The notes under the pieces were generated by a model that saw only the letters and a list, made by a program, of their open reading frames with translations, searched no databases and was not told where the DNA came from. A DNA stretch of 64,000 nucleotides from Pseudomonadota bacterium (GTDB lineage Bacteria; Pseudomonadota; Alphaproteobacteria; UBA2136; JAPKEQ01), in assembly GCA_036141575.1 (NCBI GenBank), contig JAYZXF010000003.1, positions 62,001-126,000 on the forward strand. Direction: 5' to 3'. The position numbers and the translations under genes were made by a program. Below, in pieces: positions 19,280-34,411 of this stretch (positions within the stretch are counted from its first letter, which is position 1; each line of letters opens with the position of its first letter).

Positions 19280-19400
19280 AAACTCGCTCATACTCAGTGA
19301 AAATTTTTAATGAAGGATGCACGGAAGCGATATGTATTAAACATACATGAGCTGAGTACAGCACTGAAATAAGAATTTGCAGCAAGTATGAGTAGAGTTT
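19280..19400. repeat. 121-bp long-hairpin repeat, copy A
   Basis: An imperfect inverted repeat fills the space between the convergent cca and YpjD-like genes. The outer arms pair as AAACTC/GAGTTT and CTCATACT/AGTATGAG, and the centre forms ATGTATT/AACATAC-type pairing. It is exactly as long as copy B at 32619-32739. It shares with it the ends (AAAYTCGCT and AGTAGARTTT), TTAATGA, CGGAAGCG, a TGAGC, CACTG and ATTTGCAGC. The right end overlaps the TAA stop of the minus-strand gene. There is no long T run, so it is not a classic terminator. No transposase or coding frame is present. Confidence 0.75.
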
Positions 19401-19818
19401 AGATCCAGTTACGGCTTGCAAAGTACGCCAACAGAATAAGAGCGTACACGCCAAGAGTGACGCGCGCTGCAAAGCGACCTCTCAAACCCAGCTTAAAATG
19501 TGCCCAGAGTAAAAATGTTGCAAGAACAACAGTCAGCATACTTAAAGCAGCTTTTTCAAGTGCCACACTTGTATCAGCAATTGAGTACGCACTCATCCAC
19601 CCCATCAGTAGCGCAATATAGAGAATAAACGTACCTGCTAGAAGAGTAATAAACTGGAAGCGCTCAAGCCTCACCAGAGATGGTAAAAAGCCTGACAGAG
19701 CTTTCTTTCTACGCAGGAGAAGATCCTTAGCAAGCACACCAATAGAAGACAATACACTCAACGTGTAAAAGCCATAAGCAATAGCTGCAAGAATGATGTG
19801 TGTTTGAAGTAAGCTCAT
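19399..19818 (-). CDS. CcsA/YpjD-like membrane protein, short form
   Basis: With start ATG 19818 (MSLLQTHIILAA) the product has 139 residues; ATG 19848 adds ten. Four hydrophobic helices are visible (about 5-25, 54-74, 87-105, 113-130). The sequence resembles the second half of the YpjD/cytochrome c assembly (CcsA) family: THIILAAIAYGFYTLSVL, the ERFQFITLLAG region and the family-typical end WAHFKLGLRGR, then LLAYFASRNWI. Full-length YpjD is about 260 residues, so the N-terminal helices are missing. Its 5' end faces pgpA in a very tight divergent arrangement. It may be a natural short form or a decayed gene. Confidence 0.68.
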   Translation of the reverse strand: MSLLQTHIILAAIAYGFYTLSVLSSIGVLAKDLLLRRKKALSGFLPSLVRLERFQFITLLAGTFILYIALLMGWMSAYSIADTSVALEKAALSMLTVVLATFLLWAHFKLGLRGRFAARVTLGVYALILLAYFASRNWI

Positions 19819-19876
19819 GCGTATGAGAATGGCACAAGATGTTGACATTCACAACGGGAAAAGCAACACTTCCTGC

Positions 19877-25615: not shown

Positions 25616-26926
25616 TTAGTGTAGTAGTGGGCTCCAGGCCGGGTCACTCGCATTCTTCGGTGTCGGCATGAGGCGCTCGTTGTATCCAGTAAGGTCAATT
25701 GTGTACATCTTTGTGTTGTCACCTTTTTGACGCGCAAAGGCAATCACACGGCCGTTAGGTGACCATGTTGGTGACTCATCCAGGAAACTATCTGTCAGCA
25801 TACGCTCTTCTTTACCTTCTACGTCAATCACACCAATACCAAAGCGGCCTTTGTATTCTTTAACAAAAGCAATCAAATCACCACGCGGAGACCAAACAGG
25901 TGCGTAGTAGCGCCCTTCTCCAAATGTAAGCCTGCGTACGTCCTTACCGTTTTTCTTCATAATGTAGAGCGCCGCTTTACCACCACGATCACTGTTAAAG
26001 ACAATATGCTTCCCATCAGGGCTAAAGTCTGGAGACGTGTCAATTCCGCGTTGGTTTGTTAGGCGTTTCAGCTTTTTGCTACGAAGGTTCATGCTGTAAA
26101 TTTCAGCGTTACCTGCGTGCCCCTTTGTAAGGGTCATCACGATGTTTTTACCATCAGGTGAAAAACGAGGCGAACTGTTCAATCCTTCAAAATCACCCAC
26201 AATGGTTTGTTTACCTGTAGGTAGGTCTAGGAAGTACAGACGCGGACGTCCATTCTCATAAGACATGTAAATCAACTGCTGTGCTTCTGGTGAAAAACGT
26301 GGCGTCAGCACAAGGTGGCCGCCATCAGTGAGGCACTGGTAATTCGCACCGTCTTGATCCATCACACAGAGTTTTTTAAGAATTTGGTTACCGCGCTTCT
26401 CTTCAGAAATATGCACCACGCGCGTTGCAAAGTAACCTTTCTCACCTGTCATTGTACTGTAGATATCATCTGATACACGGTGTGCAAGGTGGCGCCAAAA
26501 CTGTTTATCAGCACTATAACGACGGCCACTCAACTGCTTCTCGCCAAATACGTCCATCAAGCGAAACTCAACCGTAATTTTATCATTCTCTTCAATCACA
26601 GAACCCATAACGAGCCCCTCAGCCTTAATAAGCTTCCACTCAGCAAACTTAGGCCCTTCACGTACAAGTGAAGCGTTATCCTGCAGGTACGCTTTCTCTT
26701 TGATCACTTCAAATAGACCTGAGTTTTGTAGGTTGTTGGCAATTACCTTGCGCATTTTGTCACCCATTTCATCCATAGCTGCATCAGGGCCATCAAATGG
26801 AATCAGAGCAATTGGAAGCGGTGCCGTGTTTCCCTCATCTAGGTAAATCTTCACACGTGCTTCTGCGCTCAGCGCTACAAAAACAGTCATGAAAGTCGCA
26901 AGAATCAAGCTGTAAACTTTAGCCAT
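25616..26926 (-). CDS. tolB: TolB periplasmic beta-propeller
   Basis: This 436-residue exported protein has a signal peptide (cleaved near AEA-RV). An N-terminal alpha/beta domain covers about 25-165, and then comes a six-bladed propeller built of repeated PRFSPDGKNIV / PDFSPDGKHIV / PVWSPRGDLIA / PTWSPNGRVIA motifs. It links the Tol inner-membrane complex to Pal during cell constriction. It overlaps the tolA stop by 8 nt. The usual pal gene does not follow; icd does. Confidence 0.97.
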   Translation of the reverse strand: MAKVYSLILATFMTVFVALSAEARVKIYLDEGNTAPLPIALIPFDGPDAAMDEMGDKMRKVIANNLQNSGLFEVIKEKAYLQDNASLVREGPKFAEWKLIKAEGLVMGSVIEENDKITVEFRLMDVFGEKQLSGRRYSADKQFWRHLAHRVSDDIYSTMTGEKGYFATRVVHISEEKRGNQILKKLCVMDQDGANYQCLTDGGHLVLTPRFSPEAQQLIYMSYENGRPRLYFLDLPTGKQTIVGDFEGLNSSPRFSPDGKNIVMTLTKGHAGNAEIYSMNLRSKKLKRLTNQRGIDTSPDFSPDGKHIVFNSDRGGKAALYIMKKNGKDVRRLTFGEGRYYAPVWSPRGDLIAFVKEYKGRFGIGVIDVEGKEERMLTDSFLDESPTWSPNGRVIAFARQKGDNTKMYTIDLTGYNERLMPTPKNASDPAWSPLLH

Positions 26927-32618: not shown

Positions 32619-32739
32619 AAATTCGCTAGGGTTGCGCGAAAATAACTGTTAATGAGAACCGTAGCTCAATGTACTTAAAGGTACTTGAGCAACGGAAGCG
32701 CAGATCACTGTTATTTGCAGCCTTCTCCTAGTAGAATTT
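32619..32739. repeat. 121-bp long-hairpin repeat, copy B
   Basis: This is an imperfect inverted repeat between the convergent sulfotransferase and rnj genes. The arms pair as AAATTC/GAATTT, CTAGG/CCTAG and AAATAAC/GTTATTT. A strong central stem has CCGT-x-GCTCAA-x-GTAC pairing with GTAC-TTGAGC-x-ACGG. Length and both ends equal those of copy A (19280-19400). The outer pair C-G in copy A is T-A here, a compensating change. The right end overlaps the rnj TAA stop. It is separate from the ordinary terminator 40 bases to its left. Confidence 0.78.
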
Positions 32740-34411
32740 AAACCATAATAGCTTGTGAAATTACAGTTGGCTTTTTGCCGCGTTCTTTTACAAATGTGCG
32801 GCGTACCGCTGCGCTCATCACATCTTCCACTTGCTTGGCATGACACATATCACTGCGCTCTAAACGTTGAGTCAGTACATCCAGTACTTCATCTTCAGCA
32901 AGCTTTATCAGGTCATCTTGCAGACGCTCATCAATCAGGCCTTTACTTTTTAGATGCGGGCCAGAGATGATTTTTCCGTCCTCTTTATCAACAACGATGT
33001 TGATAGAAAGGATACCTTCTTGTGCCATACGACGGCGCTCAGCAATCACAAACACATCATCATCCAGAATGTTCATGCCATCTACGTAGTTACGGCCTGT
33101 TCTGTACGGTGTTGGGTCAAGCGCTGCATGGTCAGGGCCAAGAATAATCTTTTGACCATTCTCAATAATAAATTGCTCAAACACACCACACTTCTTCGCA
33201 AAGTCAGCGTGCGCTTTAAGGTGCTGGTATTCACCATGCACAGGCACTGCCACTTGTGGACGTACAAGGTTGTACATCTTAGCAATATCCTTTTGAGAAC
33301 CATGACCACTACAGTGGACAAACTCACTGTGTTCATGGATCACACGCGCGCCAATTTTAGTGAGGCGGTTGATCATGTTGAGAATTGGGCGCTCATTACC
33401 AGGAATCATCTTAGAAGACATAATCACTACATCTTTTGGCTTCATCACCATACCGCCAACAGTCTGGCCACCAGACATACGGTTGAGCGCTGCACGCCCC
33501 TCACCTTGTGTACCTGTTAGAATCACAAGCACTTTATGATCTGGCATACCTGCAGCATCTTCAGATGAAACAAATGCGTTCATTGTTTTCTGGTCTACAA
33601 GTCCACTTTCGCGCCCACACTCAAGCATACGGTGCATAGAGCGTCCCATTAGGCATACTTTGCGGCCATGGTTCATGGCAATATCAGCCATTTTCAGTAC
33701 ACGGCCAAGGTTACTTGCAAACGTACAGAAGAATACACGGTTCTTCATGCCACCAAGCAGGCTATCTAGGCTATCTGCCACGTCGCCTTCTGTTTTAAGG
33801 TCTCTGTCACTAAAGATGTTTGTAGAGTCACCAAACATCGCCAGTACACCTTCTTCACCAATTTCCTTAAAGCGTGCTTCAGCTGACTTAGGACCAAGCA
33901 CAGGACGGTCATCAAAGCGGTAGTCACCTGTATGAACAATGTTACCGTGTGGTGTTTTAATAAACAGGCTGTTGGCTTCAGGAATAGAGTGTGTCACTGA
34001 AACATACTCAACAGTGAACGGCCCCACTTCAATTGTGTCACCAGCTTCAACTGTTTTCAGTTTGAACTCGTCACCAAGTCCAAGGTCACGTTTTTTATGT
34101 GCAATCACGCTTGATGTAAACGGTGTTGCGTACACAGGCACAGGCATTTCTTCCCATAGGTATGGAAGTGCACCTACGTGGTCTTCGTGTGCGTGTGTAA
34201 TAAAGATTGCTTTAAGTTTGTCCATGTTCTCACGTACGTAAGAAATATCTGGAAGGATAAGATCAGTACCCGGTGCGTAACTGTCTGGGAAGCTTACCCC
34301 AACATCTACGAGAATCATGCTTCCATCACACTCGTACACCATCATGTTCATACCAATTTCACCAACGCCACCAAGTGGCAGGGCACTTAGCCCCCCGGTC
34401 TTTTTCGCCAT
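32738..34411 (-). CDS. rnj: Ribonuclease J
   Basis: This 557-residue metallo-beta-lactamase/beta-CASP ribonuclease has the metal motif HAHEDH near residue 75. GDYRFDD, FGDSTN and the beta-CASP signatures (GTQGEGRAALNRM, HCSGHG) follow, ending in an RNase-J C-terminal domain. RNase J acts as a 5'-3' exo- and endonuclease in mRNA decay and rRNA maturation in Alphaproteobacteria. It lies 88 bases after coaX, in the conserved nuo-birA-coaX-rnj order. Confidence 0.95.
   Translation of the reverse strand: MAKKTGGLSALPLGGVGEIGMNMMVYECDGSMILVDVGVSFPDSYAPGTDLILPDISYVRENMDKLKAIFITHAHEDHVGALPYLWEEMPVPVYATPFTSSVIAHKKRDLGLGDEFKLKTVEAGDTIEVGPFTVEYVSVTHSIPEANSLFIKTPHGNIVHTGDYRFDDRPVLGPKSAEARFKEIGEEGVLAMFGDSTNIFSDRDLKTEGDVADSLDSLLGGMKNRVFFCTFASNLGRVLKMADIAMNHGRKVCLMGRSMHRMLECGRESGLVDQKTMNAFVSSEDAAGMPDHKVLVILTGTQGEGRAALNRMSGGQTVGGMVMKPKDVVIMSSKMIPGNERPILNMINRLTKIGARVIHEHSEFVHCSGHGSQKDIAKMYNLVRPQVAVPVHGEYQHLKAHADFAKKCGVFEQFIIENGQKIILGPDHAALDPTPYRTGRNYVDGMNILDDDVFVIAERRRMAQEGILSINIVVDKEDGKIISGPHLKSKGLIDERLQDDLIKLAEDEVLDVLTQRLERSDMCHAKQVEDVMSAAVRRTFVKERGKKPTVISQAIMV

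Follow-up and report, generated by a model that had tools for sequence, protein, structure and literature searches.

Near position 19280 of the window, i.e., the whole 64,000-nucleotide stretch of alphaproteobacterial DNA analysed here, there is an imperfect palindrome, and a second one lies about 13 kb away. What kind of element is this, and has selection kept its fold? The original prediction held that it has, and named a structured RNA, a REP/BIME-like element or a MITE as candidates. We think it probable that the first palindrome (copy A) belongs to a small, non-autonomous, MITE-like family of transposable hairpins with a conserved structured core that would be needed for spreading. The units of this family have terminal inverted repeats and a short target duplication, and encode no protein. 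A core of ~85 nt is constant among units with differing ends and duplications.

Two hairpins in the window and their core

The features of copies A and B are listed below, where F is the strand as first read and R is its complement.

19280-19401, + (F strand, as first read): copy A, whole element, T/A-flanked (T-AAACTC...GAGTTT-A)
19280-19294, +: copy A, 5' arm of the outer stem in the predicted structure, AAACTC GCTCATACT
19385-19400, +: copy A, 3' arm of the outer stem in the predicted structure, AGTATGAGT A GAGTTT; the bulged A and AGTAG are conserved
19297-19383, +: copy A, conserved core from alignments, GTGAAAAT ... ATTTGCAGC, the apical part being the variant typical of this genome
19331-19349, +: copy A, predicted apical hairpin ATGTAT-TAAAC-ATACAT
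19399-19401, -: TAA stop codon of a Cytochrom_C_asm-domain gene (19399-19848), contributed by the end of copy A
32619-32740, + (F strand): copy B, whole element
32636-32721, +: copy B, conserved core in its class-wide form, GCGAAAAT ... GAGAACCG ... ATTTGCAGC (R2 match, 88 bits)
32738-32740, -: TAA stop codon of an RNase J gene (32738-34411), contributed by the end of copy B

Both copies are imperfect palindromes and fold far better than expected by chance. Copy A (122 nt, one base more than the 121 bp first given) reaches -36.5 kcal/mol vs -20.7 +/- 2.9 in dinucleotide-preserving shuffles (z -5.4), and copy B reaches -41.4 vs -26.0 +/- 3.7 kcal/mol (z -4.2); none of 200 shuffles is as good in either case, so that shuffled sequences do not pair equally well for A or B. 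As originally read, the outer stems AAACTC/GAGTTT of A and AAATTC/GAATTT of B are both paired, and the GCTCATACT/AGTATGAGT stem of A is swapped for CTAGG/CCTAG in B. The internal blocks described as common to the two copies are present, but CGGAAGCG falls in opposite arms, 5' in A and 3' in B, and is thus not homologous, while ATTTGCAGC occurs 2 times in the window vs 1.7 by chance. Shared blocks alone are therefore no proof of a family, and BLASTN with copy A as the query did not recover copy B. The proposed family ends, AAAYTCGCT/AGTAGARTTT, must be abandoned, since the ends differ by copy and lineage and it is the inner core that is conserved.

The element is a variable outer stem around the ~85-nt core, and the whole non-coding unit is about 120-145 bp long. 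The core consists, in order, of GCGAAAAT, a variable stem of ~9 bp, GAGAA, a CCG-type stem, AGCGCAG, TGTAC-loop-GTACA, TGAGCA, CGG, AAGCGCAG, the second arm and ATTTGCAG; in short, the conserved inner core is GCGAAAAT...GAGAA...CGCAGTGTA-loop-TACATGAG...GCGCAG...ATTTGCAG. Copy B carries the class-wide core, and copy A a related variant that is frequent in the genome of the window and in its sister species. The structure is one continuous hairpin with no branch points, in which the loop motifs are fixed while the stems vary, and the unpaired motifs are kept class-wide. An alignment of 48 core sequences has 27 pairs that are 91.9% paired, with two-sided changes in 21 of them (218 cells). The covariation score is 0.454 vs 0.151 in shuffles (0/500 reach it) and at most 0.107 with partners slid; the shuffles and the two-sided changes weigh more here, because a structure derived from an alignment tends to outscore slid versions for that reason alone. 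A full-element alignment of nine copies agrees with this picture. The paired changes first noticed between two copies are thus borne out as strong covariation.

Family size, spread and ends

Nine copies, A and B included, went into a covariance model, R1. In the genome of the window (G000; 1.85 Mb, 97.7% complete), R1 has 53 matches at E<1e-3, including A with 109 bits and B with 87 bits, most of which were not in model building. The sister species G001 has 31 R1 matches (about 30 copies); owing to palindromy, a few listed matches are one copy read on the opposite strand. Within G000, BLASTN with copy A finds seven further copies that are alike in ends and core. The median pairwise identity among 47 G000 copies is 63% and the maximum is 77%. 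The covariance-model search that had been proposed for the genome and its relatives thus gave many matches in G000, G001 and the wider Alphaproteobacteria, and the family does not end with two members, as G000 alone has about 53. The view that it has no name also stands. Rfam gives no family match at the elements with gathering or permissive thresholds, and none of the papers searched gives the sequence of the core. Nowhere did we encounter an annotated copy, and since the family is absent from Rfam, the covariance model could label many intergenic regions.

At E<1e-8, about nine or ten of the 143 alphaproteobacterial genomes sampled have R2 matches. These genomes are scattered across families, and several large Rhizobiaceae-like genomes have 9-29 copies listed each. 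Named plasmid carriers are Sphingobium, Novosphingobium, Shinella, Agrobacterium/Allorhizobium vitis, Phyllobacterium, Mesorhizobium, Rhizobium, Aminobacter, Bosea and Ensifer. Matches outside Alphaproteobacteria are weak (E 1e-6 to 1e-3) and we treat them as unproven; 5,426 E. coli genomes hold no core match at the sensitivity used. We rejected phage or viral carriage, because phages gave no match at the sensitivity used and the exact core pattern was not found in viral contigs.

The family is mobile. For about 17 of the 26 G001 copies mapped via flanking genes, the G000 site has no copy. In one intergene common to both species (L144, L073) the copies face opposite ways, a sign that they inserted independently. 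Exact empty sites are provided by close strains of Sphingobium, CCCTT[TAA]GGTTGTGTGGGG...CCCCACACAACC[TAA]AGCG vs CCCTTTAAAGCG (duplication TAA), and of Agrobacterium vitis, AATTC[TGA]CAGTCTG...AGACTG[TGA]GATG vs AATTCTGAGATACG (duplication TGA). In G150 a recent burst has left some 31 copies of 142 bp that are nearly identical; their ends are GAGGCCATTTCAAAAC, and their 5-bp duplications, read from the flanks, include AATCT, TTTAT, ATAAC and CATAT. For the G000 copies we infer the duplication from the flanks rather than from a clean empty site. These terminal inverted repeats, target duplications and empty sites in relatives bear out the MITE-like nature first suspected.

Internally deleted copies with duplications also exist. 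Three in G150 (L299, L300, L301; about 94-109 bp) miss the apical hairpin and have intact ends and flanking duplications; the deletion could predate or postdate insertion. Two copies in G001 have likewise lost internal sequence and measure 64 and 51 nt (L147:7513-7576 and L151:7738-7788), the latter being orthologous to a full-length copy at L093:8736. Such deletions are as expected if replication deletes long hairpins. At G001 L141:10439-10561, compared with 26919-26926 of the window, a copy interrupts the overlapping stop/start (ATGGCTAA) of TolA-like and TolB-like genes and seems to have forced the downstream gene onto a different start.

The terminal inverted repeats are clear in Sphingobium, A. 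vitis, Shinella, G027, G036 and G150, and are short and variable in G000. There are at least five end types around one core, and the duplications are TNA/TA or 5 bp, depending on the lineage. Further end types are as follows.

G000: TAAATTC...GAATTTA or other paired ends
G027: GAACCTGTTCA or GACCTCTTGCAAAAGTC
G036: TATAGTCGTTTC
Shinella: CTAGGACCGATCGACATTCAG
Rhizobiaceae-like G209: GTGTCGAGATTCAGG

The Shinella end has 0 and 1 mismatch in 21 positions to the two ends of an IS5-family IS in Rhizobium johnstonii. Therefore the Shinella type, at least, is an IS5-family MITE, and we infer an autonomous partner for the other end types likewise. We suggest that transposases recognising the ends, which in Shinella are those of an IS5-family element, would move the hairpins in trans. 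In G150 no autonomous partner or transposase was recognised beside single ends, with ORFs judged by eye. In the part of G000 examined (about 1.6 of 1.85 Mb) there is no multicopy ORF resembling a transposase, and all five transposase families searched (Y1_Tnp, DDE_3, DDE_Tnp_1, DDE_Tnp_1_2, rve) are absent from G000. We thus rejected a resident mover of the DDE_3, DDE_Tnp_1, DDE_Tnp_1_2 or rve family; in G000 the family probably persists as a remnant that has no mover of its own in the genome. A genome without any repeated transposase-like ORF is unusual given some 50 mobile-looking repeats.

A bolder reading, which we hold possible though somewhat unlikely, is that the ~85-nt core is itself a selfish structured module. 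It would have been moved between unrelated transposon ends of the TNA/TA and 5-bp types, and would act single-stranded to aid spreading or to spare the host, whichever transposase is used.

Placement, folding strand and decay

In G000 and G001, about 36 copies have an R strand that starts at the stop codon of the gene upstream, vs 3 at the other end, and the stop is usually supplied by the element; the in-frame-stop test is noisy in GC-rich Rhizobiaceae-like loci, and we did not rely on it there. R is co-directional with the upstream gene in most copies. In G150, which has the other duplication type, there is no clear stop-codon placement. No recurrent neighbour gene explains the placement. 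R also follows replication. Of 51 G000 copies, 43 have it on the G-rich strand (p 7e-7), as do 101 of 119 copies pooled from G000, G001, G027 and others with the skew taken per locus. The G-rich strand holds 58% of genes, and among copies without a co-directional upstream gene R is on it in 13 of 18. The biases may come from target choice at T-A type sites, and also from loss of copies whose stronger hairpin, F, would lie exposed in mRNA or on the template of the lagging strand. The one-sided placement at stop codons and on the replication strand is a natural record of hairpin targeting or tolerance.

With RNA parameters F is the better-folding strand in 101 of 115 copies, and with DNA parameters in 104 of 115; this energy difference is partly inherited along with the conserved loops. 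Within helices, G-T exceeds A-C by 110:68 (p 0.002), and this wobble excess suggests that the single-stranded F form matters. We aligned four orthologous sites clearly, and the decay test covers these four pairs only. In three of them the weaker copy has no folding advantage over random mutants of the stronger one (0.59-0.82 of the mutants are at least as stable), and in the fourth it is better folded (0.04). Because three of four orthologous copies decay like random mutants, most of the covariation arose among copies that were propagating and not by upkeep at each site. The claim that selection acts on the fold thus fits propagating copies, among which the covariation arose, but the fold is not clearly guarded at individual sites. 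We suggest that the core, folded as single-stranded F (RNA or ssDNA), would be needed during propagation, because well-folded copies found new lineages while resident copies mostly decay.

The placement could instead mean that the element is a cis-acting RNA, with R as the 3' end of the upstream mRNA and a hairpin that stabilises, terminates or processes it, so that the host keeps each copy. Its start at upstream stop codons and its co-direction with upstream genes fit such a role, and ERIC in Yersinia affects the stability of upstream mRNA in an orientation-dependent manner (PMC2229807). We nevertheless regard this role as unlikely, since R is the worse-folding strand, sister species gain and lose copies, most orthologous copies decay and the neighbour genes do not recur. 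Few T runs follow either end of the copies, and an intrinsic terminator was rejected on this ground.

Long palindromes are prone to templated mutation between their arms. Template switching of this kind could produce paired changes in an ordinary transposon relic whose fold is unselected, and at L107/L137 a multi-base block is indeed altered on both arms at once, TCTGTTTA/TAAACAGA vs TCGCTTA/TAAGTAGA. As an account of the whole family this is quite improbable. The unpaired motifs are conserved across the class, the bulges and internal loops persist although templated repair would erase them, and orthologous copies mostly drift away from pairing.

Relation to known repeats

The favored reading, a mobile MITE-like hairpin family, fits IS5-family MITEs in outline. 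Like them, the units are small and non-coding (120-145 bp, about 53 copies in G000), with terminal inverted repeats, a short target duplication and dispersed intergenic copies. The duplication is seen at empty sites as TAA and TGA, is read from flanks as 5 bp in G150 and is suggested by the flanks in G000; ends in common with an autonomous element are found for Shinella, but not for G000 or G150. The interior differs. In IS5-family MITEs it is a shrunken remnant of one IS, while here it is a conserved structured core common to unrelated ends (TNA/TA vs 5 bp). Mobile hairpins of small size are frequent among bacteria, and what lies between their transposon ends is mostly regarded as leftover sequence, whereas here fixed loops and covarying stems are kept class-wide while the ends change. 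Whether a MITE interior has a function, and which one, thereby becomes testable.

ERIC/IRU of enterobacteria is similar in being a single imperfect palindrome of ~125 bp, intergenic, MITE-like and in many copies, with TA at the termini (PMC2229807). It differs in host class, there is no core match in E. coli, and two ERIC landmark sequences occur in none of the copies when up to 4 errors are allowed. CIR repeats of Caulobacter and other Alphaproteobacteria are also intergenic, ~110 bp long and predicted to have RNA-like structure, but they consist of two arms and a linker with exposed GANTC sites (PMC2229807). The present element is one hairpin, and its G000 copies are poor in GANTC (8 sites vs 22 expected, present in 7 of 51 copies). 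The integron attC boxes RYYYAAC and GTTRRRY occur in the two arms of none of the 51 copies. Identity with CIR, ERIC or attC was rejected on these grounds. RIME and Sm-repeats of rhizobia are likewise palindromic and intergenic, with dozens of copies per rhizobial genome (PMC2573895). E. meliloti, where such repeats are reportedly common, is absent among the plasmid matches listed, which makes identity less likely.

REP/REPIN elements moved by a Y1 (HUH) RAYT transposase, the REP/BIME-like option of the original prediction, share the hairpin form, mobility, many dispersed copies, a strand bias (here the strong replication orientation) and a GTAG inside the AGTAGA end, but this origin is very improbable and largely refuted for this order: REP units are 20-40 bp and Y1 elements make no target duplication, whereas duplications are present here, the G036 and G150 ends have no GTAG, and Y1_Tnp (PF01797) is missing from G000, G001 and all order-mates searched while the same search is positive in 5 of 14 control genomes. 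Mobilisation by IS200/IS605 or RAYT enzymes was rejected for the same lack of Y1 in the order genomes searched.

Two variants are worth recording. On the A. vitis plasmid pRvVAT039a (L215:1201-1356), the apical part of a copy is split by 56 bp that resemble another rhizobial repeat (CATTCCAGGAAAAGTGCGAAGC..). In genomes of family f2 of the same order (L162, L165, L166 and L168), the outer ends AATTCGCT..AGTAGAATT and the apical hairpin are unchanged and GGGATTTTT..AAAAAGCACCC replaces GCGAAAAT..ATTTGCAGC, so that, judged from its sequence, the element looks modular.
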